Assembly (NCBI RefSeq): GCF_000236585.1
Contig: NC_017278.1
Span: 1,674,001-1,738,000 of the forward strand
Source: Thermus sp. CCB_US3_UF1
Lineage (GTDB): Bacteria; Deinococcota; Deinococci; Deinococcales; Thermaceae
Direction: 5' to 3'
Length of the DNA: 64,000 nucleotides
Made by a program: the position numbers and the translations under genes. This document shows, piece after piece, positions 45,510-64,000 of the stretch. Below the pieces are notes generated by a model, which saw only the letters and a list, made by a program, of their open reading frames with translations, had not been told where the DNA came from and did not search any database. Every line of letters begins with the position of its first letter. Within the stretch, counting starts at the first letter, position 1.

Positions 45510-45905
45510 ATGGACCTCACCGCATTGGGGAAAGAGGTACTAAAGGCCCAGCCTTTCAGCCAGCTTCTGGGGGTGGAACTCCTTTGAGCCCAGGAGGGGG
45601 AGGTGGCCTTCGCCCTCCCGGTACGCCCCGAGTTCCTCCAGCACCTGGGGGTGGTGCACGGCGGGGTCATCGCCGCCTTGCTGGATAACGCCCTCACCTT
45701 CGCCGGGGGCACGGCCCTAGGCCCCCAGGTCCTCACCGTGGAGTTCAAGGTGAACTTCCTGCGCCCGGCGCAAGGAGGGCGGCTTGTGGCCAAGGGCCGG
45801 GTGGTCCACGCCGGAAAGCGCCTGGCCGTGGTCCAAGGGGAGGTGGCCAGCGAGGGGGAACCCGGGCCCATCGCCCTGGGCCAGGGGACCATCCGCAAGG
45901 TCTAA
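45510..45905 (+). pseudogene. paaI: PaaI-family thioesterase with an in-frame TGA at codon 26
   Basis: A good RBS and ATG at 45510 begin 'MDLTALGKEVLKAQPFSQ', but codon 26 (45585-45587) is TGA. After it the same frame continues as a complete hotdog thioesterase: 'EFLQHLGVVHGGVIAALLDNALTFAGGTALGPQVLTVEFKVNFLRP' with the HGG and catalytic-acid region. Total would be 131 residues. The likely original codon is CGA (Leu-Arg-Ala), a single C-to-T change. A rescue start is GTG 45603, which would lose the N-terminal helix. Either a recent nonsense mutation or a sequence error. Confidence 0.85.
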
Positions 45906-46291
45906 GCCAAGGCCAAGGCGGCCCGGGCCCGGTCGGCCAGGGCGAAGAAGCGCTCCTTGGTGAGGGGGATCTTGCCCGTCACCAGCCCCTTGCCGGGCTC
46001 GTAGTGGGCGTGGAGGTGGATGTGGGCCCGGGGCAGGCGGAGGCCGATGCGCTTGAGCTGGGCATGGCGGGGGGAGACATCAGCCAGGAGAAAGGGCTCG
46101 CCCAGGGCGTCGGAAAGGGAAGCGGTCATGATGGTGGTGGGCAGGTCATAGGGGCGCTCCATGCGGTAGATGAAGTCGGGGAAGTCCGCCTCCTTTTCAA
46201 AACGCACCCCCTTTTCCCGGGCGTACTCCCGCATCCAGGAGAGAAGCTCCACCCAGGCCTCGTAGAGTTCCCGATCGTGGGAAGCGCTCAT
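45902..46291 (-). CDS. Conserved hypothetical protein
   Basis: 129 aa, cytosolic, not recognised. It starts 'MSASHDRELYEAWVELLSWMREYAREKGVRF', has an 'AHIHLHAHYEPGKGLVTGKIPLTKERFFALADRARAALA' tail with a His-rich HIHLHAH run, and no signal or membrane segment. TATACT (46298-46303) ends 6 nt before the ATG, predicting a leaderless transcript. Stop overlaps the thioesterase pseudogene by 4 bp. Confidence 0.75.
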   Translation of the reverse strand: MSASHDRELYEAWVELLSWMREYAREKGVRFEKEADFPDFIYRMERPYDLPTTIMTASLSDALGEPFLLADVSPRHAQLKRIGLRLPRAHIHLHAHYEPGKGLVTGKIPLTKERFFALADRARAALALA

Positions 46292-46370: not shown

Positions 46371-49322
46371 ATGGCCACATCCGCCCGCCTATACCTGTTG
46401 GACGAACCCCACGCCCTCTGGGAGGGCTGCCCCTACCCTCTTCCCCCTTCGCGGCCGGGACAGCTTCTGCTCTTCCTAGCCTACCGGGGGGAGTGGGTGG
46501 CGCGGGAAACCCTGGCGGGCCTTCTCTGGCCTGAGATCCCCGAGGAAGAGGCGCGCCACAACCTGCGGGTGGCCCTGCACCGGGCCAGGTCCCTGCCCTG
46601 GGCCCAGGCCGTGGAGGTCAACCGGGAACAGGTGCGCTTCGTCCTGGTTACGGATGTGGCCGAGTTTCGCGCCGCTTTGGGACGGGGGGATTGGGAGGAA
46701 GCCGTGCGCATCCACCGCAGGCCCTTCCTTATGGATTTTCCCCTGCGGGAAGCCCCGGCCCTGGAGGACTGGGCCTCCCTCGAGCGCCAAAGCCTCCTCG
46801 AGGCCTGGCAGTACGCCGCCAAACGCAGGGCCCAAGAGCTGGAGGAAGCCGGGGAAGCCGAGGAGGCAAGCCGGCTGCTCCTGGAGGTGCTGCGGCACGA
46901 TCTTCTGGCCGAGGATGTCCTGCAGGCCTACCTGCGGGCAGCCCAGATGGCCGGGCAGCGCGAGGCCGCCCTCAAGGTCTACGACCGCTTTCGGCGCGAA
47001 CTTGGGGAGGGTTTGGGCCTCGAGCCCGCCAGGGTTACCCAGGAGCTGGCCCAGGCCCTCCGGCAAACCCAACCCCTGGCTGCCCCCGCCTCCCCCCGCC
47101 TTACCTTCCCCCTGGGGCTCCTCCACCCGCCGCGGATGGTGGGGCGAGAGGAGGAGCTGACCGCCTTGCGCCGGGCCCGCTTCGCCCTGGTGAGCGGGGA
47201 AGCCGGGGTGGGCAAGACCCGCCTCCTCCTGGAGAGCTTCCCCGAAGCTCCCCGTCTCCGGTGCCTCGAGGGCCTGGAAAACCTGCCCTGGCACCCCATC
47301 CTGGTCCACCTAAGGCGGCATCTGGACAAGCTCCCCGACCTCGGCCCCTACCGGGAAGACCTGGCCCGGCTGTTGCCCGAAGCCTTCCCCGGCCTAACCC
47401 CGCCCCCTCCCGAGCCCGGGAGCAGCAAACCCCGCTTGCTGGAAGCCCTGGCTCGGAGCCTGGCCTCTGCAGAAAGGCTTCTCTTCGATGACCTCCAATG
47501 GGCCGACGAGAATACCCTGGAACTGCTCCTCTACCTCCTGGAACGGGGCCAACCCTGGATCGGGACCTACCGGCCCCAGGAGGTAGGCCCCGCCCTAAAG
47601 CGGACCCTGGAAGCCCTGCACGCCCACGGGGTGGAAACCGTGGTCCTAAAGCCCCTGGAGGCCGATGCGGTACATGCTCTCCTGGCCGACCTCACGGGAG
47701 CGGAGGAGGGCCCACCCTTGTTCTCCCGTTGGCTCCGGGGGAAGACCGGGGGCAACCCCTTTTTCGCCCTGGAGGTCCTCAAGACCCTCTTTGAGGGCGG
47801 GGTGTTGCGGGAGGAAGGAGGTCGCTGGCGCACCCCCCTGGACGAGGTTACCCGCGACTACACCGAGCTCCAAGTACCCCCCAAGGTGGCCGGGGTAGTG
47901 GCCCGCAGGCTGGGGCGGCTTTCCCCCGAAGCCCTGCGCACCCTCCAGGCGGCCAGCACCCTGGGGGAAGGTTTCTCCCCCCAGGTGTTGGCCCCCATGG
48001 CGGGGCTTTCGGAATGGGCGGTCATGGAGGGGTTGGAAGAGGCCGAGCAGGCGGGGATCGTGGCCGGAAACGGCTTCGTGCACGACCTCTTCCGCCAGAG
48101 CATCTACCAGGGCCTCTCCCAAGCCCGGCGCCAGTTCCTGCACGCCCAGGCAGCCCAGAGCCTCCAGGGCCAGGCCCCACCCCAGGTGGTGGCCGAACAC
48201 TGGTTCCAGGCCGGGGCCCACGGCGAAGCGGCGCACAACTGGCTGGTGGCGGCCAGAGCGTACCTGAAAAGTTCCCTGCCCGAGGAAGCGGCGAGGGTGC
48301 TGGAGCGGGCTTACCCCCACGCCCAAGGCCTCGAGGGGCCGGAGATGGCCGCCCACCTGGCCCGCAGCTACCGGGAGCTGGGCCAGTACGCCCAAGCGCA
48401 ACGATGGATCCAGGAGGCCCTGCGCCACCCCTCCCCACGTTGGCAGGCGGATGCCCTCGTGGAGCAGACCTGGGTCCTCCTGGGGGAAGGCCGGCTGGAG
48501 GAGGCGGCCAAAGTGCTGCAGGAGGCCCAGGAGATCCAGGCCAGGCTGGAGCCTGAACCCCTGGAGGAGGGCTCCTTGGAGCTGGCCCTGGCCAAACTGC
48601 GCTCCAATCTAGCCTTCCGCCAAGGCCAGTTCACCGCTTCCTGCCAGACCTTGGAACCCCTGGCGGCCCGGCTGCGGACCCAAGGCCCCTCCCTGGCCCT
48701 GGCGGGAATCCTGGTCAGCCTGGGGAGCAGCTACGACCACCTGGGCCAGGAAACCCAGGCCATCGCCACCCTGGAGGAGGCGCTTCAGGTAGCCCAGAAG
48801 GTGGGCGCCCGCTACTACCTGGTGGACGGGGCCAACAACCTCCTGGGGTGCCTGATACGCCAGGGGCGTTGCGAAGAAGGTCTTGCCCAGGCGAAGGCCG
48901 CCCTGGCCCTGGGCGAGTACGAGGGCACCGCCTTCTTGCGCAACAACCTGGCCGTGGCCTATCTCTCCCTGGAGCAGGAAAAAGAAGCGCTGGCCCTCTT
49001 TGAGGCCAACGCCCACGGGGCTCCGGACGCCATGCTGCGGGTTCTAGCCTGGGCGCGGCTAGCCGAACTCTACCCCCGCCACGGGTTGGCCGGCGCGGTG
49101 GAACATGCCCTGGACCAGGCCTTGGAGACCGCCCTGGGCATGGACCTCCAGGCCGTTCCCGTACGCTTCCTCCTGGCCCTCCTGCGCTGGGGAACCGAGG
49201 CCCAGCTTCGGCGGGCCGTCCCCCTCCTGCAGGAAGGGGTGGCGGAAACCCTGCCCCCACCCTGGCGGGAGGCGTACCTCGAGGCCCTGGCCCAACGCGG
49301 CCTCCCCCCTTCCTCCCCCTGA
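46371..49322 (+). CDS. Large SARP-type regulator (DNA-binding/BTAD - ATPase - TPR)
   Basis: 983 aa. Residues ~25-80: winged-helix of OmpR/SARP type ('LAGLLWPEIPEEEARHNLRVALHRARSL'). Residues ~95-235: bacterial transcriptional activator (BTAD) domain ('HDLLAEDVLQAYLRAAQMAGQREAALKVYDRFRRELGEGLGLEP'). STAND/AAA ATPase: Walker A GEAGVGKT at 276-283, Walker B-like 'LLFDDLQWADENTLELLLYL' near 375. From about 600 to the end, TPR-like helical repeats. ATP-switch activators of this class respond to unknown signals. TACAAT at 46336-46341 is its probable -10. Three copies of a promoter element follow it downstream, likely its targets. Confidence 0.88.
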   Translation: MATSARLYLLDEPHALWEGCPYPLPPSRPGQLLLFLAYRGEWVARETLAGLLWPEIPEEEARHNLRVALHRARSLPWAQAVEVNREQVRFVLVTDVAEFRAALGRGDWEEAVRIHRRPFLMDFPLREAPALEDWASLERQSLLEAWQYAAKRRAQELEEAGEAEEASRLLLEVLRHDLLAEDVLQAYLRAAQMAGQREAALKVYDRFRRELGEGLGLEPARVTQELAQALRQTQPLAAPASPRLTFPLGLLHPPRMVGREEELTALRRARFALVSGEAGVGKTRLLLESFPEAPRLRCLEGLENLPWHPILVHLRRHLDKLPDLGPYREDLARLLPEAFPGLTPPPPEPGSSKPRLLEALARSLASAERLLFDDLQWADENTLELLLYLLERGQPWIGTYRPQEVGPALKRTLEALHAHGVETVVLKPLEADAVHALLADLTGAEEGPPLFSRWLRGKTGGNPFFALEVLKTLFEGGVLREEGGRWRTPLDEVTRDYTELQVPPKVAGVVARRLGRLSPEALRTLQAASTLGEGFSPQVLAPMAGLSEWAVMEGLEEAEQAGIVAGNGFVHDLFRQSIYQGLSQARRQFLHAQAAQSLQGQAPPQVVAEHWFQAGAHGEAAHNWLVAARAYLKSSLPEEAARVLERAYPHAQGLEGPEMAAHLARSYRELGQYAQAQRWIQEALRHPSPRWQADALVEQTWVLLGEGRLEEAAKVLQEAQEIQARLEPEPLEEGSLELALAKLRSNLAFRQGQFTASCQTLEPLAARLRTQGPSLALAGILVSLGSSYDHLGQETQAIATLEEALQVAQKVGARYYLVDGANNLLGCLIRQGRCEEGLAQAKAALALGEYEGTAFLRNNLAVAYLSLEQEKEALALFEANAHGAPDAMLRVLAWARLAELYPRHGLAGAVEHALDQALETALGMDLQAVPVRFLLALLRWGTEAQLRRAVPLLQEGVAETLPPPWREAYLEALAQRGLPPSSP

Positions 49323-49323
49323 G

Positions 49324-49352
49324 GCGCTGGTGTAACGGGGCCAGCCTACCCT
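49324..49352 (+). promoter_or_regulatory. SARP-regulon promoter element, copy A
   Basis: GCGCTGGTGTAACG, 9 nt, TACCCT (-10 at 49347-49352), beginning 2 bp after the SARP stop codon. The small gene starts 7 nt after the -10. The -35 position (17 bp upstream of the -10) is not TTGACA-like, so an activator is expected. Confidence 0.6.
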
Positions 49353-49359
49353 GAGCCCC

Positions 49360-49539
49360 ATGACCCCTAAGCTGCGCCGGAGTTTCCTGGTGCGAGTGTA
49401 CACCGCCCCTGGCCCGGACGGCGTTCCCCGCTGCTCGTACCGCGTCCACGACCTGAAGACCGGTCGGGAGGTGGAGTTTGCCACCTGGGAGGAGCTGCAG
49501 GCTTACCTGCAGCGCCGCTGGCCAGGCCGGCTGCGCTGA
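49360..49539 (+). CDS. Small hypothetical protein (59 aa)
   Basis: 59 aa, begins 'MTPKLRRSFLVRVYTAPG' and ends 'YLQRRWPGRLR'. Basic, with 'YRVHDLKTGREVEFATWEELQAYL', which looks like a beta hairpin plus helix. Not recognised. It lies directly behind promoter element A, and its stop codon (49537-49539) is the first three bases of the 37-bp repeat holding element B. The position directly between the SARP gene and the lipoprotein gene makes a regulatory or accessory role plausible, but this is inference. Confidence 0.6.
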   Translation: MTPKLRRSFLVRVYTAPGPDGVPRCSYRVHDLKTGREVEFATWEELQAYLQRRWPGRLR

Positions 49540-49573
49540 GACGCTGGTGTAACGCGGGGCTTCTACAGTGGCC
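49537..49573 (+). promoter_or_regulatory. SARP-regulon promoter element, copy B
   Basis: 37 bp identical to 53677-53713. Core ACGCTGGTGTAACG at 49541-49554, 9 nt, TACAGT (-10 at 49564-49569). Drives the lipoprotein gene whose ATG is at 49627, leaving a leader of about 50 nt with its own RBS. Confidence 0.7.
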
Positions 49574-49626
49574 TAAGAAGGCATTGCTCGCAGATTTTGG
49601 AGGGAAACACAGCCGAGGAGGAACCC

Positions 49627-52600
49627 ATGAAACCGCGTACTCAGGCACCGATGGTTCGCTTTCGCCAGTACTGGCTGGCCCTGGCCTTGCTGGGGCTCCT
49701 GCTGAGCTGCGCCCAGCCCAGCCCGCCCCCGCCGCAGGTGGTGCGGGTGGAGGTTGCCCCGGGGGGCCTGTTGCTCACCCGCCCGGGGGAGAGCCAGCCC
49801 CTGAGCGCCAGGGCCTACGATGCCCAGGGCAAGGAAGTCAAGGCCAACTTTACCTATAGCTCCAGCAACCCCGCCGTGGCCAGCGTCACCCCGGAGGGGC
49901 GGGTCACGGCCCAGGCCGACCTGGGTTCGGCCCGGGTGGTGGTGCAGGCCGGGCAGGCTAGGGCCGAGGTGGGGGTGATGGTAGCCCAGCCGGTGGCGGG
50001 GGCCACGCTGGTCTCGGATAGCCAGGTTGTCCGCATCGAAGGCACCGACCCCAACGCTCCCTTCAAGGTGGGCTACCGCTATGTGGTCACCCTGGAAGGG
50101 GTGGATCCTCCGGCCGTGGGGAGCGTACTGATGAGCCAGGGCAGCCTGCCGGTGGCGGGAAGGGTGGTGGAGGCCCGGCAGAGCGGGAGCCAGACCCTGG
50201 TCACCCTCGAGCTGGTGCCGCTGGGGGAGCTTCTCACCCGGTATCGCCTCGAGGAGACCTTCAACCTGGCTCACCTTCCGGCTGTTGTGCCCGACAGCGT
50301 GGGTTCGAACTTCGATGTGACCCCCAAAGGCAACGGCCAGTACACCCTCCGGCTCAAGCCCGGTAGGGTGATCCGCACCACCGCCCGCCCCGCCGGCAGC
50401 GTGCGGCCCATGCGGGAGTTCGAGGTAGGCCCCCTGGAGTGCGAAACCGAGTTGAGCCTCGTGGACCTTTCGGTGGACGAGGTGGAGGTCGAAGTAGACC
50501 TGTCCTCCATCGGCTTTGAACTCCTGTGGACCGAGGCAAACAAGAAGTTGTTGATGGTAGGCAGTCCCAAGGCCAAGCTGGCTTTCAATCCCTCCCTGGC
50601 GGCGGCCCTGGAGGGCAGCCTGGAGTGCAAGCTGGAGTTCTTTCAGATACCCTTGCCGGTGCCAAGCGTCCTCTCGGCGATAGCGCGCCTGTACATTCCC
50701 GTGGGGGCAGGTTTTGAGATAAGCGGCAAAGTGCCGGTCGCGGGCGTGGGGTTCGAGTCCAGCACGGAGTACCTCCTGGAGCTGCGGGCCGGGGTGGAGT
50801 GCACCCCCACCTGTTCCTTTGCCCGCCGGTTTGAGCGGAGGGAGACCCAAGCCGAGTTCAAGTGGGTTCTGCCCCGGGAGATACCCCGTGGCCTTAAGGT
50901 GGAAGCCGAGGCCAGCGGGTTCCTGTTCGCCACCATCAACACCGGGTTACAGGCCCACATCACCAACACCGGCAAAATCTTCGGTGTCCGGATAAGCGAC
51001 TTCGAGTTCTTCGTGGCCAAGGCGGCCTTGAAGCTCGATGGAAAGCTGGCCTCGGAGGAAACCCAGGTGCGCGACCCCGAGTTTGCCGCAAAATATGGCC
51101 TTTCCCTCGAACTGAGCCTGAAGACCGGCAAGGACCTGCAAGAGGCCCTGGAGGCCTTGGAGATCCTGGTTACGGCGATAAACCTCAAGTTCCCCTTTGA
51201 GCTGGGCTCCTCCCCCACGGCCACCACCCTCACCGCCGACCGCAACAGCTTCCGATTCGGCGACGAGGTGCGCTTCCGGGTAAAGCTGGATAATACCGAG
51301 TTCCCCGTTCTGGGCTACCAGGTGGAGGCGGTGCGCGTCTACCGCAACACCGGCACCCCCGAGAACCCCGTGCTGGTGCTGGCCAACCAGGCCACGGCCT
51401 CCCCCGGCCAGACCGAGTTCGAGATTCCCTGGGTGGCCACAGAGGATGGCCAGGTGGTGGAGGGCAGCGGCGAGCGCACCCGGCACCACTTTGTGGCCTT
51501 CGTCAAGACCAAGCCGCTGGACACGCGCCTCGAGCTGGGCGGCATCAAATCCTTTACCGGAGCCCGAGGTGAGCTGGACCCCACCTTCGGCTCAGGGGGG
51601 AAGGTGACCACGGATTTGGGCTCGAGCTTTGACGGAGCCCATGCCCTGGTCCTCCAGCCCGACGGCAAGCTGGTGGCGGCGGGGTATAGCTCTAACGCCT
51701 TGGGACTCGCCGACTTCGCCCTGGTGCGCTACAACCCGGATGGCAGCCTGGACACCTCCTTCGGCAGCGGGGGCAAGGTGACCACGGAGGTGGTCCAAGG
51801 CGATGACAAAGCCTACGCCCTGGTTCTCCAGCCCGACGGCAAGCTGGTGGCGGCGGGGTATAGCAGCGAGGGCCTCGGCGACTTCGCCCTGGTGCGCTAC
51901 AATCCGGATGGCAGCCTGGACCCCTCCTTCGGCACCGGGGGCAAGGTGACCACGAATTTTCACTTTGACGTAGCCCACGCCCTGGTTCTCCAGCCCGACG
52001 GCAAGCTGGTTGCGGCGGGGTGGAGCCAGATTGGCAGCAACTCTTACTTCGCCCTGGTGCGCTACAACCCGGATGGCACCCTGGACACCTCCTTCGGCAA
52101 CGGAGGTAAGGTGACCACGGAGGTGGGCTCGAGCAGTGACGGAGCCAATGCCCTGGTTCTCCAGCCCGACGGCAAGCTGGTGGCAGCGGGGTATAGCCGG
52201 AACGCCGCGGGCGACTACGACGTCGCCATGGTGCGCTACAACCCGGATGGCAGCCTGGACACCTCCTTTGGCAGCAGGGGGAAGGTAATAACGCCGGTCT
52301 TTTCGACCTTTGGAAGCGCCCTGGTTCTCCAGCCCGACGGCAAGCTGGTGGCAGCGGGGTTTAGCACGAACTCCGCGGGCAACGATGACTTCGCCCTGGT
52401 GCGCTACAATCCGGATGGCAGCTTGGACAGGTCGTTCGGCACCGGGGGCAAGGTGACCACGGATTTGGGCCTCCCCCGTGACATAGTCCACTCCCTGGTC
52501 CTCCAGCCCGACGGCAGGCTGGTGGCAGCGGGGTCAAGTAACAACGACTTCGCCCTGGTGCGCTACAACCCGGATGGCAGCCTGGACCCCTCCTTCGGCA

Positions 52601-52746
52601 TCGGAGGGAAAGTGACCACGGCGGTGGGCTCGAGCTATGACATAGCCCATGCCCTGGTCCTCCAGCCCGACGGCAGGCTGGTGGCGGCGGGGCGGAGCCG
52701 GAACGCCTCGGGCAACTCCGACTTCGCCCTGGTGCGCTACCGCTAA
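49627..52746 (+). CDS. Secreted lipoprotein with Ig-like domain and seven delta-60 repeats
   Basis: 1039 aa from ATG 49627 (RBS GAGGAGG). Lipobox LLLSC with lipid-modified Cys28. Residues ~35-110: Big2-like bacterial Ig fold ('YSSSNPAVASVTPEGRVTAQADLGSARVVV'). Middle ~110-640: beta-rich region of unknown fold. From residue 651 seven tandem units of 52-60 aa (consensus SFGxGGKVTT...ALVLQPDGKLVAAG and DFALVRYNPDGSL) match delta-60 repeats and should close a seven-bladed propeller. Anchored at the cell surface; likely binding or scaffold function. Two genes for secreted hydrolases follow. Confidence 0.82.
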   Translation: MKPRTQAPMVRFRQYWLALALLGLLLSCAQPSPPPPQVVRVEVAPGGLLLTRPGESQPLSARAYDAQGKEVKANFTYSSSNPAVASVTPEGRVTAQADLGSARVVVQAGQARAEVGVMVAQPVAGATLVSDSQVVRIEGTDPNAPFKVGYRYVVTLEGVDPPAVGSVLMSQGSLPVAGRVVEARQSGSQTLVTLELVPLGELLTRYRLEETFNLAHLPAVVPDSVGSNFDVTPKGNGQYTLRLKPGRVIRTTARPAGSVRPMREFEVGPLECETELSLVDLSVDEVEVEVDLSSIGFELLWTEANKKLLMVGSPKAKLAFNPSLAAALEGSLECKLEFFQIPLPVPSVLSAIARLYIPVGAGFEISGKVPVAGVGFESSTEYLLELRAGVECTPTCSFARRFERRETQAEFKWVLPREIPRGLKVEAEASGFLFATINTGLQAHITNTGKIFGVRISDFEFFVAKAALKLDGKLASEETQVRDPEFAAKYGLSLELSLKTGKDLQEALEALEILVTAINLKFPFELGSSPTATTLTADRNSFRFGDEVRFRVKLDNTEFPVLGYQVEAVRVYRNTGTPENPVLVLANQATASPGQTEFEIPWVATEDGQVVEGSGERTRHHFVAFVKTKPLDTRLELGGIKSFTGARGELDPTFGSGGKVTTDLGSSFDGAHALVLQPDGKLVAAGYSSNALGLADFALVRYNPDGSLDTSFGSGGKVTTEVVQGDDKAYALVLQPDGKLVAAGYSSEGLGDFALVRYNPDGSLDPSFGTGGKVTTNFHFDVAHALVLQPDGKLVAAGWSQIGSNSYFALVRYNPDGTLDTSFGNGGKVTTEVGSSSDGANALVLQPDGKLVAAGYSRNAAGDYDVAMVRYNPDGSLDTSFGSRGKVITPVFSTFGSALVLQPDGKLVAAGFSTNSAGNDDFALVRYNPDGSLDRSFGTGGKVTTDLGLPRDIVHSLVLQPDGRLVAAGSSNNDFALVRYNPDGSLDPSFGIGGKVTTAVGSSYDIAHALVLQPDGRLVAAGRSRNASGNSDFALVRYR
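51577..52743 (+). repeat. Seven tandem delta-60 repeat units
   Basis: DNA and protein repeats of about 155-180 bp, with blocks such as CTCCAGCCCGACGGCAAGCT and GGTGCGCTACAACCCGGATG recurring almost unchanged in each unit. Loop lengths vary. High DNA identity between units indicates recent expansion or ongoing recombination. Confidence 0.9.
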
Positions 52747-52772
52747 CTGGGGCACGGACATCGGAGGTATTT

Positions 52773-53612
52773 ATGTGCCAAGAGAATCGGACACCCCGGC
52801 TATCCATCCCCTCCTGGGCTGCCACCGCAGGCTGGCTGCTCCTCTGCCTGGCTTTTGCGCCCCATGCGCTGGGCCAGGAGATGCGGGTCGAGACGGTCAG
52901 CTACAAAAACGGCGACCTCGAGCTGCGTGCCTTCCTCTACCGCCCCCCAGGCCCAGGGCCGTACCCCGCCATCGTCTACAACCACGGCAGCGAGAAGAAC
53001 CTGGCCTACATTGACCGGCTGGCGGTGCCCTTTGTGCGGCAGGGCTACGTGTTCTTTGCCCCCAACCGCCGGGGCCACGGCCGCTCACCTGGCACCTACA
53101 TCCTGGACGTGCTGGGCACGCTGCGCGGGGCGGAGTGGAGCCAGGCCCTGGTGCGGCTGCACGAGGAACAGCTCTCCGACCAGCTCGCCGGGGTGGCCTA
53201 CCTGAAGAACCTGCCCTTCGTGGACTCAGGCCGCATCGGGGTGTATGGATGGTCGTTCGGGGGCATCCAAACCCTGCTGGCCGCCGAGCGCTCCGAGAGC
53301 GGCTACAAGGCGGCGGTAAGCTGCGCGGGGGCCGCGCAAACCTGGCCGGCTTCGCCCGACCTGCGGGCCCGCCTCTCGGAGGCCGCCCAAAAAGCGGCGG
53401 TGCCCCTCTTCTTGCTGCAGGCCCAGAACGACCACTCTCTGGCGGCCATCGAGGGCCTATCGGAGGTGCTCCGCCGGAGCGGGAAGCCCCACCAGTCCAG
53501 GGTGTACCCCGCTTTTGGCACCACCCCCCAACAGGGGCACGAGTTCTGTATCCAGGGAAGCGAGATTTGGGGGCCGGAGGTGTTTGCCTTTTTTGCCCAG
53601 CACCTTCGCTGA
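52773..53612 (+). CDS. Secreted alpha/beta hydrolase (dienelactone hydrolase/prolyl oligopeptidase-like)
   Basis: 279 aa. N-terminal signal peptide with hydrophobic core 'GWLLLCLAFAPHALGQ'. 'YPAIVYNHGSEKNL' forms the oxyanion-hole strand, nucleophile Ser161 in 'GVYGWSFGGIQT' (GxSxG), acid in 'FLLQAQNDHSLAAIEG', and catalytic His in 'QQGHEFCIQG'. Good RBS GGAGGT. 26 bp behind the lipoprotein gene, so in the same transcript, which ends at a strong terminator. Substrate (ester, peptide or lactone) unknown. Confidence 0.85.
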   Translation: MCQENRTPRLSIPSWAATAGWLLLCLAFAPHALGQEMRVETVSYKNGDLELRAFLYRPPGPGPYPAIVYNHGSEKNLAYIDRLAVPFVRQGYVFFAPNRRGHGRSPGTYILDVLGTLRGAEWSQALVRLHEEQLSDQLAGVAYLKNLPFVDSGRIGVYGWSFGGIQTLLAAERSESGYKAAVSCAGAAQTWPASPDLRARLSEAAQKAAVPLFLLQAQNDHSLAAIEGLSEVLRRSGKPHQSRVYPAFGTTPQQGHEFCIQGSEIWGPEVFAFFAQHLR

Positions 53613-53649
53613 GGCCACAGCCCACCAGCCCCGGCCTTCGTTCTGGTGG

Positions 53650-53677
53650 CCCCGCCCCTAGGGCGGGGTTTTCTCTT
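53650..53677 (+). terminator. Intrinsic terminator after the hydrolase gene
   Basis: 8-bp stem CCCCGCCC / GGGCGGGG with a CTA loop, followed by TTTTCTCTT. Next promoter element C starts immediately after it. Confidence 0.92.
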
Positions 53678-53713
53678 GAGACGCTGGTGTAACGCGGGGC
53701 TTCTACAGTGGCC
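53677..53713 (+). promoter_or_regulatory. SARP-regulon promoter element, copy C
   Basis: Identical over 37 bp to copy B (49537-49573). ACGCTGGTGTAACG, 9 nt, TACAGT (-10 at 53704-53709). Drives the lipase-like lipoprotein gene. It lies directly behind a strong terminator, so this unit depends on its own promoter. Confidence 0.7.
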
Positions 53714-53762
53714 CTCGAGGCTCCCCCAATCCAGACCGGGGCAGCCCTCAAGAGGAGGACGT

Positions 53763-56456
53763 ATGCGGCACAGGATTCTCTGGAGCATTGGGGTGGTTCT
53801 GGTGCTGCTCGGCGGTTGCGGCAACCGCACCGAGGCACCCGAAACCAACCCCCAGGTATTCGTGGGCGAGGTTTCGGGTACGGATGCACTCATCGCCTTG
53901 GTTGTGGGAGAAAAAGGCGTACTGGCCTACGTTTGCCAGGGGGCAAACAGCTGGGACAACACCACCTACGGCGGCTACACCGGCTGGTTCCACGGCTTGG
54001 CCAGGGGAAAGCAATTGGACCCCATGACCTCCGCCAGTGGCCACGTTCTCTCGGGGCAGATCGCCGACCAGACGGCCAGGGGAACCCTCACCCTGGCCAA
54101 CGGATACATCCTGAACTGGACCGCCGAGAAGGTGCGTTCCGGCACCGGCGCTGGGCTTTACAGCCTGGAGGAAAACGGGATGCTCACGGGGTTGATCGTC
54201 ACCAACGCTGGGAAGATGGCGGGGGCTTCGCGCCTCAACACCGGCGACGCCAGCAGCCTCTCGGCCCCGGTGCAGGTCGTCACCGCCCCTAGCAGCACCA
54301 ACACCTCCCCTACGGTGAGCGTTACCTTCCCCAACCTGGGTACCCGCGACCTCAACCTGACCCCCGTAGACCTGCTGCGTCATATGGTTGTTCCCGATAG
54401 CCCCACCATTATCGTTCTCCTTCACGGGGCCACCGCCCGAACCCCGCTGGACAACCCCCGGGTTGACGGCGTGCCGGGCACCCGCAAACACGCCCGCCAC
54501 TTCTGGACCTACCCCTTCGTGGCCGCCCTCTTGGGGGCCGACCCCAGCAAAAATGCCCCGCTGGTCACGCTCGAGGGCACCGACATCACCGGAAGTGCCT
54601 TCCTGAACGTGGGGCTAACCCTACCGGGCCAGGGCACCGACCAGGTGCCCGCCTCCGACCAGTGCACCCTGGGCGACATGGCCACCGCCGAGCGCTACAC
54701 TCGAGGCCAGACCACTCCCCCTAAGCTCACCGTACTGCTCGGCCACCGGGATGCCAAGGACAGCCTGGTGGAGCAGGCCATGTACGCCGTGGACCAGATT
54801 TACGCCTGCGTCACCCTGTTCGAGCAAACCTTCCGCCGCAAACCCAAGCTGCTCTTCGTGGCCCAGAGCTGGGGCGGTCTGATCACCCGCTTTATCCTGT
54901 CCAACCCCACCCGGGCCTCCCTGCAGGCCATCACCAGCCCCACCTCCCTTCGCTTTCCCACCGACAACGCCCGCTACGACACCGGTGACCTTTCCACCCG
55001 GGTCAAGATGGACTACCTGCGCAACCTCACCTACTACGCCGTCACCATGGCCACGCCTCACCAAGGGGTGCGCATCATAGACCGGGCCAGGGAAGTGGTT
55101 CAGGTCGTGGGCATGCTCCGGGGTACCCTCGCCGCCGCAGATCGGGAACAAGAAAACCTGCTCAACGCCTGGCGCAATGCGGTGAGCCTGCTTCTCAACC
55201 TTCCCCCTGCCGATGCCCTCCGGGCCGAGCCGGTGGTGGCGGCCCTGGCCTGGTTTGAACAGTTCGCCGAAAGCACGTTTGCCATCAACCGGGTCTGGGC
55301 CGAGAGTCACACCGGGCTATGGGTAGCCCTGAATACCGGGCCGCTGCACCCCAGCCGGGCCATCCGCACCAACCAATCGCCCATCGTAGGCGCCAAGAAC
55401 CAGCTCATTCCCATATACGCCTTCGGCGCCCGCAACCCCGGCAGCACCGTGGCCGACACCCTCAACCTAGGCCAGATTCCCGGCGACTTTCAGGCCCTGG
55501 GCAGCCTGCAAAAAGGCGCCACCAAGCAGAGCTGGGTTATACAGGCCATCGGCGGGGATTTCGTCTACCGCTTCTTGGATCTGAGCACCGGCCCCCGCAC
55601 CCCCTTTGCGGGTTTTGCCAACCAGCTTGACCGCACCGAGCGGGTGGATGCCATCGCCCTGCTGCGTACCGCCCTGGATTCGGTAGCTCCCCAACTCAAC
55701 CTTTTCTTCCGCGCCCAGTTTGGGAGCGACTCGGCCAGCCTGCTGCGCTTCATGCTGGAGCAACTTCGGGTGCCAAGCACCTCGCTGGTGCCCATCTTCC
55801 TCAATCAGGGGTTCACGGTTGACCTGGGCGGCAGCGTGCAGTTGCCGGTACCCCGGCTTTCCTGCCAGGGCCGGAACATCACCCTGGACTATGGCCCGCT
55901 GGTCATTGCCCTGGTAAGCCACTACGGCAGCTTACAGCAGGCCGCCAGCGCCCTGGCCTCGCTCAGCTTCCCTGCTCTGCTCAGTGCCCTAAACAGTCTG
56001 GGTGGAGATTTCAGCGGCCTGGCCACCAATCTTTCCACCTGGATGACTCAGACCCTGAACACCCTACAAAACCTTCCTGTTGCGTGTGTTAATCCGGCCA
56101 ACTGGACGCTCTCCTGGCCCCTGACCAGTGTCCCGGCCCCCAGGGCTGTTCCTACCGGCGTGCCGGTGAGCGACCGGGTGATTGACAACGACGGCCTTGC
56201 CGAGTTCGACTCGGCCATGGGCTTCCGGCTGGGCACCTCCATCAACGAGTTCTTTGACCACACCCGCACCGACTTTGTGGTGGACAACAAGCCCCTGCCC
56301 GGCTCCTGGTACCGCCGCTACCGCAGCGATTTGGAGCAGTTAAACCACGACACCATGCGAGAAGAGGCGGGCCGATTTGTCTGGACGGACATCCTTTCGC
56401 GCAATCCCGGCCCCTTGCCCAGTGAACAGGGCGACCTAAGCGTTTACCCCCAGTAA
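53763..56456 (+). CDS. Secreted lipase-like lipoprotein (alpha/beta hydrolase)
   Basis: 897 aa from ATG 53763, RBS AGAGGAGG. Lipobox LGGC with Cys19. N-terminal ~180 residues beta-rich. Hydrolase domain with 'TIIVLLHGATA' (oxyanion HG) and Ser369 in 'LLFVAQSWGGLITRFIL' (GxSxG variant AQSWGG), the pattern of lipases/PGAP1-like esterases. A long C-terminal part of unknown fold ends 'SEQGDLSVYPQ'. Codon use is less GC3-biased than in housekeeping genes, hinting at acquisition. Confidence 0.78.
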   Translation: MRHRILWSIGVVLVLLGGCGNRTEAPETNPQVFVGEVSGTDALIALVVGEKGVLAYVCQGANSWDNTTYGGYTGWFHGLARGKQLDPMTSASGHVLSGQIADQTARGTLTLANGYILNWTAEKVRSGTGAGLYSLEENGMLTGLIVTNAGKMAGASRLNTGDASSLSAPVQVVTAPSSTNTSPTVSVTFPNLGTRDLNLTPVDLLRHMVVPDSPTIIVLLHGATARTPLDNPRVDGVPGTRKHARHFWTYPFVAALLGADPSKNAPLVTLEGTDITGSAFLNVGLTLPGQGTDQVPASDQCTLGDMATAERYTRGQTTPPKLTVLLGHRDAKDSLVEQAMYAVDQIYACVTLFEQTFRRKPKLLFVAQSWGGLITRFILSNPTRASLQAITSPTSLRFPTDNARYDTGDLSTRVKMDYLRNLTYYAVTMATPHQGVRIIDRAREVVQVVGMLRGTLAAADREQENLLNAWRNAVSLLLNLPPADALRAEPVVAALAWFEQFAESTFAINRVWAESHTGLWVALNTGPLHPSRAIRTNQSPIVGAKNQLIPIYAFGARNPGSTVADTLNLGQIPGDFQALGSLQKGATKQSWVIQAIGGDFVYRFLDLSTGPRTPFAGFANQLDRTERVDAIALLRTALDSVAPQLNLFFRAQFGSDSASLLRFMLEQLRVPSTSLVPIFLNQGFTVDLGGSVQLPVPRLSCQGRNITLDYGPLVIALVSHYGSLQQAASALASLSFPALLSALNSLGGDFSGLATNLSTWMTQTLNTLQNLPVACVNPANWTLSWPLTSVPAPRAVPTGVPVSDRVIDNDGLAEFDSAMGFRLGTSINEFFDHTRTDFVVDNKPLPGSWYRRYRSDLEQLNHDTMREEAGRFVWTDILSRNPGPLPSEQGDLSVYPQ

Positions 56457-56483
56457 AGGTGTCTTTCGGTGGCAAAGGATGAG

Positions 56484-56515
56484 GGCCCCGGCGTGATGCC
56501 GGGGCCTTTCCCTTT
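56484..56515 (+). terminator. Intrinsic terminator after the lipase gene
   Basis: 9-bp stem GGCCCCGGC / GCCGGGGCC with a GTGAT loop, followed by TTTCCCTTT. It also lies next to the 3' end of the tRNA fragment on the other strand. Confidence 0.9.
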
Positions 56516-56560
56516 GGTGGGCGCGAGTGGACTTGAACCACCGACCCCTACCGTGTCAAG
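56515..56560 (-). tRNA. 3' fragment of tRNA-Val(GAC), probable attachment-site remnant
   Basis: Minus strand reads, 5' to 3', the anticodon loop CTTGACAC, GGTAG, the variable loop, a T-arm GGTGG-TTCAAGT-CCACT, acceptor CGCGCCC and ACCA. The 5' half (GGGCGCG acceptor strand, D-arm, 5' anticodon stem) is absent; upstream sequence does not pair. This is what remains when an integrative element inserts in the anticodon loop of tRNA-Val and carries its own 3' half. The chromosome side is below 56515 and the element side above 56560. Confidence 0.78.
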
Positions 56561-56618
56561 TTAGCTCTGCACCCCCATTTCACCCCCACTTAAAACACGA
56601 CAAACGGCATACACACGG

Positions 56619-56626
56619 CAAAAACC
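56619..56626 (+). repeat. Target-site duplication of IS copy 1 (left)
   Basis: CAAAAACC, repeated exactly at 57885-57892 on the other side of IS copy 1. Confidence 0.92.
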
Positions 56627-57884
56627 GGTCGTGTCAAGAGTTATGTGTAAGAGTCTGTGTACGGGGGGCATACCGCTCCTGAAGCATCTTCTCCAGCACC
56701 TCCTTCACCTCCGAGAACCCCTTTAGTTTCCGTTCTGCCCACCTCCCTTCCTGCCTCTCCGACTCCAGGTAAAGAAGCTTGTACACCGCCTCTTCCTTAG
56801 GAAACTTGTGGTCCCGCACCTTCGTCCCCCGCCGCACTTCCCGGATAAACCGCTCCATCAGGTTGGTGCTCCGCAGGTACGGCCAAAGCACCTTGGGGTA
56901 CCCGTAGAACCGCAGGAAGGCCCCCGAATCCTGTACCCAAAGCCCCACCACCCCCGGGTACCGCGAACCCCAGGCGGCCTTCACCTCCTCCAAGGCCCCA
57001 AGAGCTTCTTCCCGGCTCTCCGCCCCGTACACCCGCCTCAGGTCCTCCGCCAGCAGGCCCCGGTCCCGCGCCCGCACCTGGGACAGGCTCCACCGCACCC
57101 CGTGCACCACGCACCGCTGCCATTCCGCCTGAGGGTAGACCCTGCGGATCGCTTCAGGAAGCCCGGGCAGCCCGTCGGTGATGAAGAGCAATACCCGCCG
57201 CAGGCCCCGCTGCCAAAGCTCCCCCAGGACCCCCTCCCATCCCAGGGCGCTCTCCGTGGGCAACAGCCAAAACCCCAGGACCCGCCTCTCCCCATTAGGG
57301 GCGATGCCCAGGGCCACATACACGCTTTCCCGTACGATCCCTTCTCCTTCCCTGAAGACCTTTAGGGAAAGCCCGTCCAGGTAGACGAAGGCCATCTCCT
57401 CGGGCAAAGGCCGGGTGCGGAAGGCTCCTGCCGCCTCCAGGACCTCGTCCGTCAGGGCGCTCAGGGTCTCGTGGGAGTAGCGGTGGCCTAAGAGCAGGCT
57501 CAGTATCTCGGCCGCCTTGCGCTGACTGACCCCGGCGGCGTAAAGGGCTACCGCCACTTCCCCCACGTCCACCAGGCGGCGGACGTAGGGCTTAAGGAAA
57601 GCCGGGTAATACCGAGATTCCCGATCCCTAGGGACCTTCAGGTCCACCTGGCCGAAGGTGGTCTCCAGCTTGCGGGGGTAGTAGCCGTTCCTGCGGCCTC
57701 CGTGCACCTGCAAGAAGGCCGTCCGGTCCAGCTCCAGAACCGTCTGCAGAACCTCGGCTACTGTCTCCCGCACCGCTTCCCTCAGCAAGATCCGCAAGGT
57801 ATCCTGGTCCACGGGGCACCTCCTCGTGCTAAGGTGTGCCCCCCTATTAAACACGGACCCTTACACATAAATCCTTACACGACC
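56627..57884 (-). mobile_element. IS256-family insertion sequence, copy 1 (complete, 1258 bp)
   Basis: Ends defined by comparison of three copies and by the 8-bp target duplication CAAAAACC. Imperfect terminal inverted repeats of about 34 bp (29 matches), each starting GGTCGTGT and containing TTATGTGTAAG. One transposase gene on the minus strand. Same length as copy 2. Confidence 0.95.
56634..57812 (-). CDS. IS256-family (mutator type) transposase, copy 1
   Basis: 392 aa from a GTG at 57812 (VDQDTLRILLREAV), preceded by GAGGAGG; an ATG 14 codons upstream lies near the IS end and has no RBS. DDE residues: Asp in 'MAFVYLDGLSLKV', Asp in 'LLFITDGLPGLPEAIRRVYP', Glu in 'STNLMERFIREVRRGTKV'. 'QRCVVHGVRWSLSQV' is the CxxH region of the family. 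The stop codon lies in the terminal repeat, 7 bp from the IS end. Confidence 0.95.
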   Translation of the reverse strand: MDQDTLRILLREAVRETVAEVLQTVLELDRTAFLQVHGGRRNGYYPRKLETTFGQVDLKVPRDRESRYYPAFLKPYVRRLVDVGEVAVALYAAGVSQRKAAEILSLLLGHRYSHETLSALTDEVLEAAGAFRTRPLPEEMAFVYLDGLSLKVFREGEGIVRESVYVALGIAPNGERRVLGFWLLPTESALGWEGVLGELWQRGLRRVLLFITDGLPGLPEAIRRVYPQAEWQRCVVHGVRWSLSQVRARDRGLLAEDLRRVYGAESREEALGALEEVKAAWGSRYPGVVGLWVQDSGAFLRFYGYPKVLWPYLRSTNLMERFIREVRRGTKVRDHKFPKEEAVYKLLYLESERQEGRWAERKLKGFSEVKEVLEKMLQERYAPRTQTLTHNS

Positions 57885-60082: not shown

Positions 60083-61340
60083 GGTCGTGTAAGGATTTAT
60101 GTGTAAGGGTCCGTGTTTAATAGGGGGGCACACCTTAGCACGAGGAGGTGCCCCGTGGACCAGGATACCTTGCGGATCTTGCTGAGGGAAGCGGTGCGGG
60201 AGACAGTAGCCGAGGTTCTGCAGACGGTTCTGGAGCTGGACCGGACGGCCTTCTTGCAGGTGCACGGAGGCCGCAGGAACGGCTACTACCCCCGCAAGCT
60301 GGAGACCACCTTCGGCCAGGTGGACCTGAAGGTCCCTAGGGATCGGGAATCTCGGTATTACCCGGCTTTCCTTAAGCCCTACGTCCGCCGCCTGGTGGAC
60401 GTGGGGGAAGTGGCGGTAGCCCTTTACGCCGCCGGGGTCAGTCAGCGCAAGGCGGCCGAGATACTGAGCCTGCTCTTAGGCCACCGCTACTCCCACGAGA
60501 CCCTGAGCGCCCTGACGGACGAGGTCCTGGAGGCGGCAGGAGCCTTCCGCACCCGGCCTTTGCCCGAGGAGATGGCCTTCGTCTACCTGGACGGGCTTTC
60601 CCTAAAGGTCTTCAGGGAAGGAGAAGGGATCGTACGGGAAAGCGTGTATGTGGCCCTGGGCATCGCCCCTAATGGGGAGAGGCGGGTCCTGGGGTTTTGG
60701 CTGTTGCCCACGGAGAGCGCCCTGGGATGGGAGGGGGTCCTGGGGGAGCTTTGGCAGCGGGGCCTGCGGCGGGTATTGCTCTTCATCACCGACGGGCTGC
60801 CCGGGCTTCCTGAAGCGATCCGCAGGGTCTACCCTCAGGCGGAATGGCAGCGGTGCGTGGTGCACGGGGTGCGGTGGAGCCTGTCCCAGGTGCGGGCGCG
60901 GGACCGGGGCCTGCTGGCGGAGGACCTGAGGCGGGTGTACGGGGCGGAGAGCCGGGAAGAAGCTCTTGGGGCCTTGGAGGAGGTGAAGGCCGCCTGGGGT
61001 TCGCGGTACCCGGGGGTGGTGGGGCTTTGGGTACAGGATTCGGGGGCCTTCCTGCGGTTCTACGGGTACCCCAAGGTGCTTTGGCCGTACCTGCGGAGCA
61101 CCAACCTGATGGAGCGGTTTATCCGGGAAGTGCGGCGGGGGACGAAGGTGCGGGACCACAAGTTTCCTAAGGAAGAGGCGGTGTACAAGCTTCTTTACCT
61201 GGAGTCGGAGAGGCAGGAAGGGAGGTGGGCAGAACGGAAACTAAAGGGGTTCTCGGAGGTGAAGGAGGTGCTGGAGAAGATGCTTCAGGAGCGGTATGCC
61301 CCCCGTACACAGACTCTTACACATAACTCTTGACACGACC
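60083..61340 (+). mobile_element. IS256-family insertion sequence, copy 2 (complete, 1258 bp)
   Basis: Opposite orientation to copies 1 and 3, same length as copy 1, 8-bp duplication CCCTCAAC on both sides. Encoded transposase is identical in sequence to copy 1. Inserted in the 3' part of the large unknown gene. Confidence 0.95.
60155..61333 (+). CDS. IS256-family transposase, copy 2
   Basis: 392 aa from GTG 60155 after GAGGAGG. Protein identical to copy 1, with all three DDE acidic residues. Likely active in recent time, since the copies have not diverged and both target duplications are perfect. Confidence 0.95.
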   Translation: MDQDTLRILLREAVRETVAEVLQTVLELDRTAFLQVHGGRRNGYYPRKLETTFGQVDLKVPRDRESRYYPAFLKPYVRRLVDVGEVAVALYAAGVSQRKAAEILSLLLGHRYSHETLSALTDEVLEAAGAFRTRPLPEEMAFVYLDGLSLKVFREGEGIVRESVYVALGIAPNGERRVLGFWLLPTESALGWEGVLGELWQRGLRRVLLFITDGLPGLPEAIRRVYPQAEWQRCVVHGVRWSLSQVRARDRGLLAEDLRRVYGAESREEALGALEEVKAAWGSRYPGVVGLWVQDSGAFLRFYGYPKVLWPYLRSTNLMERFIREVRRGTKVRDHKFPKEEAVYKLLYLESERQEGRWAERKLKGFSEVKEVLEKMLQERYAPRTQTLTHNS

Positions 61341-63091: not shown

Positions 63092-64000
63092 GGTCGTGTC
63101 AAGAGTTATGTGTAAGAGTCTGTGTACGGGGGGCATACCGCTCCTGAAGCATCTTCTCCAGCACCTCCTTCACCTCCGAGAACCCCTTTAGTTTCCGTTC
63201 TGCCCACCTCCCTTCCTGCCTCTCCGACTCCAGGTAAAGAAGCTTGTACACCGCCTCTTCCTTAGGAAACTTGTGGTCCCGCACCTTCGTCCCCCGCCGC
63301 ACTTCCCGGATAAACCGCTCCATCAGGTTGGTGCTCCGCAGGTACGGCCAAAGCACCTTGGGGTACCCGTAGAACCGCAGGAAGGCCCCCGAATCCTGTA
63401 CCCAAAGCCCCACCACCCCCGGGTACCGCGAACCCCAGGCGGCCTTCACCTCCTCCAAGGCCCCAAGAGCTTCTTCCCGGCTCTCCGCCCCGTACACCCG
63501 CCTCAGGTCCTCCGCCAGCAGGCCCCGGTCCCGCGCCCGCACCTGGGACAGGCTCCACCGCACCCCGTGCACCACGCACCGCTGCCATTCCGCCTGAGGG
63601 TAGACCCTGCGGATCGCTTCAGGAAGCCCGGGCAGCCCGTCGGTGATGAAGAGCAATACCCGCCGCAGGCCCCGCTGCCAAAGCTCCCCCAGGACCCCCT
63701 CCCATCCCAGGGCGCTCTCCGTGGGCAACAGCCAAAACCCCAGGACCCGCCTCTCCCCATTAGGGGCGATGCCCAGGGCCACATACACGCTTTCCCGTAC
63801 GATCCCTTCTCCTTCCCTGAAGACCTTTAGGGAAAGCCCGTCCAGGTAGACGAAGGCCATCTCCTCGGGCAAAGGCCGGGTGCGGAAGGCTCCTGCCGCC
63901 TCCAGGACCTCGTCCGTCAGGGCGCTCAGGGTCTCGTGGGAGTAGCGGTGGCCTAAGAGCAGGCTCAGTATCTCGGCCGCCTTGCGCTGACTGACCCCGG
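63092..64000 (-). mobile_element. IS256-family insertion sequence, copy 3 (cut by window end)
   Basis: Starts with the same GGTCGTGTCAAGAG terminus as copy 1, same orientation. Left flank is CTCGTCGT; the matching duplication should lie near 64350, outside the window. Confidence 0.93.
63099..64000 (-). CDS. IS256-family transposase, copy 3 (N-terminus outside window)
   Basis: The C-terminal ~300 residues are present and identical to the other copies, including the three catalytic acidic residues. The reading frame remains open to the window edge. Confidence 0.93.
   Translation of the reverse strand, partial: GVSQRKAAEILSLLLGHRYSHETLSALTDEVLEAAGAFRTRPLPEEMAFVYLDGLSLKVFREGEGIVRESVYVALGIAPNGERRVLGFWLLPTESALGWEGVLGELWQRGLRRVLLFITDGLPGLPEAIRRVYPQAEWQRCVVHGVRWSLSQVRARDRGLLAEDLRRVYGAESREEALGALEEVKAAWGSRYPGVVGLWVQDSGAFLRFYGYPKVLWPYLRSTNLMERFIREVRRGTKVRDHKFPKEEAVYKLLYLESERQEGRWAERKLKGFSEVKEVLEKMLQERYAPRTQTLTHNS

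Follow-up and report, generated by a model that had tools for sequence, protein, structure and literature searches.

SARPs are known mainly as antibiotic switches of actinomycetes; in Streptomyces coelicolor, afsS adjoins afsR. Repeats of 11 bp characterize known SARP promoters, where 8 bp separate the 3′ copy from the -10, and the afs box consists of two 11-bp repeats near a weak -10, the upstream copy overlapping the -35 (PMC10936776). AfsR–afsS is the system closest to the locus described here: AfsR is a large SARP with ATPase and TPR parts (993 aa, versus 983 aa for the Thermus protein), its 22-bp box of two 11-bp repeats stands just before the -10 with the upstream repeat on the -35, and its target is the gene of a tiny protein (63-aa AfsS, versus 59-aa p59 here) (PMC10936776, PMC6988585). 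The Thermus locus differs in the sequence of its repeat, in its cargo (exported lipoproteins and hydrolases, versus antibiotic regulators) and in a layout that recurs many times in Deinococcota with private sites; p59 has a leaderless TANNNT start and a β-β-β-α model.

SARP-LAL regulators such as Streptomyces PimR join a SARP domain to a large ATPase part and bind heptameric direct repeats (PMC3367932, PMC5930380); they are cluster-situated antibiotic activators of actinomycetes with other targets and are not known to have a p59-family partner. EmbR of Mycobacterium tuberculosis shares the winged-helix plus BTAD fold (PDB 2fez) but has an FHA domain in place of the ATPase and TPR parts and a different regulon. 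DnrS of Thermus thermophilus is a BTAD-containing activator in denitrification control (PMC5748679), whose GAF and C-terminal BTAD domains are unlike the architecture found here. Leaderless TANNNT starts, in which only a few bases separate the -10 motif from the start codon, are common in Deinococcota (PMC12340547); the present locus has the same -10 placement and adds an activator-type repeat upstream in fixed register. We found no open-licence paper that treats SARP or BTAD in connection with Deinococcus or Meiothermus.

The window, that is, the whole 64,000-nucleotide stretch analyzed from Thermus sp. CCB_US3_UF1, contains the features collected in Table 1. The 983-aa BTAD–ATPase–TPR regulator named in a preliminary description of this DNA was confirmed by Pfam, with BTAD scoring 39.1 bits over residues 102–231 (cut-off 22.1) and with the AAA_16 (61.2 bits) and TPR_8 (38.8 bits) matches that mark a large, AfsR-type SARP. 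Its layout comprises a winged-helix DNA-binding part (residues ~1–95, recognition helix 58–73), BTAD (~96–235), a STAND-like ATPase with Walker A GEAGVGKT (276–283) and Walker B LLFDD near 370, and TPR repeats; an OmpR-like N-terminal winged helix followed by BTAD is the combination that defines the SARP family. The AlphaFold model of the first 255 residues (pLDDT 92) displays three β-strands, three helices and a hairpin, and its closest PDB structures are AfsR (8k60/8hvr) and EmbR (2fez), with E values of 4e-9 to 4e-8; the profile match to AfsR reaches E 2e-15. These features make the protein a large, AfsR-like SARP, predicted to act as an activator.

Table 1. Features of the SARP locus (window coordinates).
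Feature	Coordinates	Strand	Remarks
Large SARP-type regulator, 983 aa	46371–49322	+	BTAD, AAA_16 and TPR above Pfam cut-off
Element 1	49320–49352	+	Repeats 49320–49330 (TGAGGCGCTGG) and 49331–49341 (TGTAACGGGGC); -10 TACCCT 49347–49352
p59, 59 aa, leaderless	49360–49539	+	Founding case of family following SARP genes
Element 2	49537–49569	+	Repeats 49537–49547 (TGAGACGCTGG) and 49548–49558 (TGTAACGCGGG); -10 TACAGT 49564–49569
1039-aa lipoprotein	49627–52746	+	Lipobox LLSC; Big_2; C-terminal DUF5122/delta-60 propeller repeats
Secreted alpha/beta hydrolase (DLH/S9-like)	52773–53612	+	Signal peptide; second gene of element-2 operon
Intrinsic-terminator-like hairpin	53648–53670	+	Consensus match only; closes element-2 operon, precedes element 3
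Element 3	53677–53709	+	Repeats 53677–53687 and 53688–53698; -10 TACAGT 53704–53709
897-aa lipase-like lipoprotein	53763–56456	+	Lipobox; HGA and AQSWGG motifs
Mutator-family (IS256-type) transposase	56634–57854	-	Bounds locus

Alignment with relatives showed each element to be a 22-bp tandem 11-bp direct repeat, TGAGACGCTGG followed by TGTAACGCTGG, then 5–6 nt and a TAnnnT box. All three elements of the preliminary description are real, their sequences and coordinates are correct, and the 37-bp identity it reported between 49537–49573 and 53677–53713 is exact; the true unit, however, begins 6 nt further upstream, and its tandem 11-bp repeat had been missed. The pattern GCTGGTGTAACG-N9-TAnnnT occurs with 0 mismatches at window positions 49326, 49543 and 53683. 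Allowing up to 3 mismatches, the window holds 3 matches against 0.33 expected, a number reached in 0 of 100 shuffles, and across the whole 2.26-Mb genome these three are the only copies with at most 2 mismatches, the next best having 3. Repeat spacing is 11 bp in 3/3 elements, 11 or 22 bp being characteristic of SARP promoters, and the distance from the heptamer TGTAACG to the -10 is 9 nt in the window and 9–10 nt in relatives, versus the textbook 8. The -35 position is taken up by the first repeat. No sigma70-type -35/-10 pair was found in 49200–56700, and a reading as sigma70 promoters was rejected on this ground. The TGA of element 1 is the SARP stop codon and that of element 2 the p59 stop codon; element 1 is kept in the orthologous loci of Meiothermus and has diverged in genome G022.

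The element is confined to genomes that carry the regulator. Among 50 Thermaceae genomes, the 18-mer TGAGACGCTGGTGTAACG was found with 0–1 mismatch only in the own genome and 7 others, and 8/8 of these hold a close SARP ortholog (overall identity 51–64%; for G006, 59% across the DNA-binding part) with the sites at or beside its locus; wide occurrence without the SARP gene, the outcome that the preliminary description had named as speaking against its proposal, was not observed. On two further contigs of G014, the sites adjoin genes that relatives carry within this locus. A 44%-identical ortholog in G019 comes without the element and without p59. Related loci lie in Meiothermus, including M. 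taiwanensis DSM 14542, and the locus is absent from all other Thermus genomes among the 50. Two other readings were rejected: a widespread repeat, as neither the rest of the genome nor the other Thermus genomes contain the element, and a genome-wide regulon, as the sites are local. A broken ortholog of the window SARP, present as 60–65% identical fragments in several frames, was also observed in G001 (C2:316204–317448, L083).

The locus runs in the order SARP, element, p59 and then variable cassettes (propeller lipoprotein, hydrolase, lipase-like lipoprotein, a 320-aa lipoprotein and others), most of which carry their own element. The 59-aa ORF, propeller lipoprotein, secreted hydrolase and 897-aa lipoprotein are as previously described. 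Relatives of the hydrolase in Meiothermus loci are 70–92% identical, and the 897-aa lipoprotein, with 0 Pfam matches, has relatives that follow this element in Meiothermus loci as well. The nearest relatives of different cargo genes are spread over different genomes, which suggests that cassettes have been exchanged. On the 5′ side the neighbor is the core gene nqo15 (45902–46291); on the 3′ side stand three IS256-type transposase copies in both orientations, the further two at 60113–61333 and 63099–63872. These transposases, together with the lack of the locus in any other Thermus genome, suggest horizontal acquisition. Integration linked to a tRNA was considered and rejected, with no tRNA found in 40–64 kb of the window.

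The TACCCT of element 1 ends 7 nt before the p59 ATG, so that the p59 mRNA would be leaderless, and a TANNNT lies 6–7 nt before this ATG in 8/8 orthologs. Family alignment defined p59 as one of a set of ~55–75-aa proteins following SARP genes. It has 0 Pfam or NCBIfam matches, and its β-β-β-α model (pLDDT 85) found no confident structural match, the best Foldseek E (0.29) and VIA-align Z (4.8) being weak. A whole-genome search located p59-like genes in 57/111 Deinococcota genomes; among Thermus genomes, only CCB_US3_UF1 has one. By hand comparison in 15 genomes of other families, at least about 21 of 50 p59-like matches stand directly after a SARP stop, and 38/49 p59-like ORFs lie within 450 nt of one in loci that were chosen around SARPs. 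The preliminary description was right that element 1 heads the 59-aa gene, but this gene belongs to a conserved family and is not incidental. With p59 and element 1 the locus has, like AfsR–AfsS, a small-protein gene behind a SARP-type promoter next to the SARP, and we infer that the p59 family is a regular first target comparable to AfsS. A p59-like ORF ~500 nt after a Chloroflexota SARP (L203) hints that the family extends beyond Deinococcota.

The arrangement was then compared across Deinococcota in 60 regions, nearly all around paralogous SARPs, counting 11-bp-spaced repeats that match at 6/7 positions or more, precede a TAnnnT and lie at most 120 bp from the SARP stop. Such promoters follow 19/59 paralogs versus 12/526 control genes (P = 4e-13), and the 11-bp period accounts for 19 loci, each of the remaining periods between 7 and 23 bp for 0–3. 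The repeat sequences differ by clade (TGCAACG, GTCATCC, ATAACGC, AATGACG and others). Most of 20 further p59 regions consist of a repeat, ~9 bases, a TAnnnT-type box, 6–7 bases and the start codon, the repeats differing in sequence again. Across 29 non-redundant p59-like leaders, a 6/7 repeat at 11 bp is present in 72%, and at any other period in at most 10%. In roughly half or more of the SARP paralogs, the 250 bp after the stop contain no clear repeat. Cargo is biased as well: the nearest gene downstream of the SARP that encodes 150 aa or more is lipoprotein-like in 28/59 cases versus 33/545 for other genes (P = 1e-15) and exported in some form in 40/59 versus 146/545, as called by a simple signal-sequence rule rather than a trained predictor. 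Often the first gene after the SARP encodes a ~60-aa leaderless protein, and exported lipoproteins follow. The local regulon proposed earlier was drawn too narrowly, the arrangement being phylum-wide. Outside Deinococcota only traces were seen, a p59-like gene with a Chloroflexota SARP and repeats with Burkholderiales and Acetothermia SARPs.

Several further loci deserve mention. In the own genome (C2:165813–182003, L163), a second SARP is split into two ORFs ~1.2 kb apart, and the p59-like gene downstream of it has its own repeat, GCCACGC-tttt-GCCACGC-ctacccggc-TAAGGT. Two loci (L169, L170) carry 10-bp repeats (TATAACG-gca-TATAACG) after SARP stops and before exported-protein genes. Several Meiothermus (L094, L101, L104–L106) conserve a TGTAACGCGC[CT]TGTAACGA-type repeat that is intergenic and away from any SARP. 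In most Thermaceae, whether or not they have a large SARP, a TGTAAC[AG]-N4-TGTAAC[AG]-N9-TA-type promoter precedes a conserved KAS III-like gene (MAYLxGLGVYLP...) and an acyl-CoA ligase-like gene (L088–L098, L102, L103, L107–L117; ~position 1501 of each). Divergent TGTAAC repeats beside SARPs in two Thermus genomes proved to be this KAS III operon promoter, which is present without a SARP, and were not counted.

We then compared the repeats, picked without use of protein sequences, with the proteins beside them. Among 45 non-redundant SARPs, the more alike the recognition helices, the more alike the repeats, with overall identity removed (partial r 0.37, 0/2000 permutations), although common descent of the paralogs makes such permutation P values overstate independence. 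This ancestry is shared by all columns, yet the helix stands out: the best sequence windows lie nearly all on or next to the recognition helix, and the median window gives 0.02. For the 30 SARPs whose repeats have an ACG core, the base two positions ahead of the core (N-2) is predicted better by residue 67 than by any other of the 224 columns; lysine pairs with G, leucine in most cases with C, glutamine with T, and valine with T or A. Profile alignment places residue 67 opposite AfsR T88 and R71 opposite AfsR R92, the two base-contacting residues in the AfsR structure.

Direct-repeat geometry, the different repeats after paralogous SARPs and the covariation with the recognition helix lead to the prediction that the SARP binds the element; together with the confinement described above, they support the earlier proposal that the SARP drives an element heading exported products. 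Very probably, a SARP pair on the 22-bp repeat activates three local transcripts, and the same private wiring is common among the large SARPs of Deinococcota. Two SARP domains would sit side by side on the tandem repeat TGAGACGCTGG–TGTAACGCTGG, with the first repeat in place of the -35, and recruit sigma/RNA polymerase to the TAnnnT 5–6 bp downstream. The transcripts switched on would be the leaderless p59 mRNA, the operon of propeller lipoprotein and secreted hydrolase, and the lipase-like lipoprotein mRNA, while the ATPase and TPR domains would gate SARP activity in response to a signal. Each of the other large SARPs would use a private repeat matched to its own helix, after its own stop, to drive a p59-family protein and exported lipoproteins.

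The repeats might instead bind a different regulator of the OmpR type, such as a PhoB-like response regulator, their position after SARPs reflecting co-regulation or gene order. OmpR-family regulators also use 11-bp repeats, and the sites of AfsR and PhoP overlap in Streptomyces (PMC10936776, PMC6988585); moreover, the TGTAAC 11-bp repeat promoter precedes the Thermaceae KAS III operon irrespective of a large SARP, so repeat format alone is no proof of SARP control. The confinement of the window element to SARP-bearing genomes, and repeats that vary by SARP and covary with its recognition helix at the AfsR contact position, make this explanation improbable. A repressor is less probable still. 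A SARP dimer covering the -35 region could shut off RNA polymerase, since the site overlaps the promoter core and sequence does not reveal the direction of effect; against this, the promoters lack a -35 consensus for basal activity, and AfsR activates in the same geometry (PMC10936776).

Least probable of all, in our judgment, is that the element, rather than a regulated promoter, represents a dispersed repeat or recombination seam helping to shuffle cargo cassettes. Cassette order and content do vary, 37 bp are identical in two copies, nearest relatives differ by gene, and IS256-type transposases flank the locus. Yet repeat, spacing and -10 are kept while other bases vary, element 1 stands exactly one leaderless distance from p59 in 8 orthologs, and paralogous loci keep the format with a different sequence. 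A seam role may exist in addition to the promoter role.

Activation by the SARP from its own local repeats therefore remains our preferred reading. More tentatively, at a little under an even chance, we propose that an ancient multi-copy module of Deinococcota, consisting of a large SARP, a private 11-bp repeat promoter and p59, controls surface lipoproteins through a readable helix–repeat code, with p59 as a new small regulator that would serve its own SARP as an AfsS-like relay or as a partner in feedback. The Deinococcota SARPs would constitute a large family of local activators beside their own predicted sites, previously undescribed in the open-licence papers searched. Dozens of natural regulator–site pairs make SARP specificity readable from genomes and testable by residue swaps. 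They also provide a regulatory context for many uncharacterized exported lipoproteins, and private activator–promoter pairs from thermophiles could serve as orthogonal expression parts.
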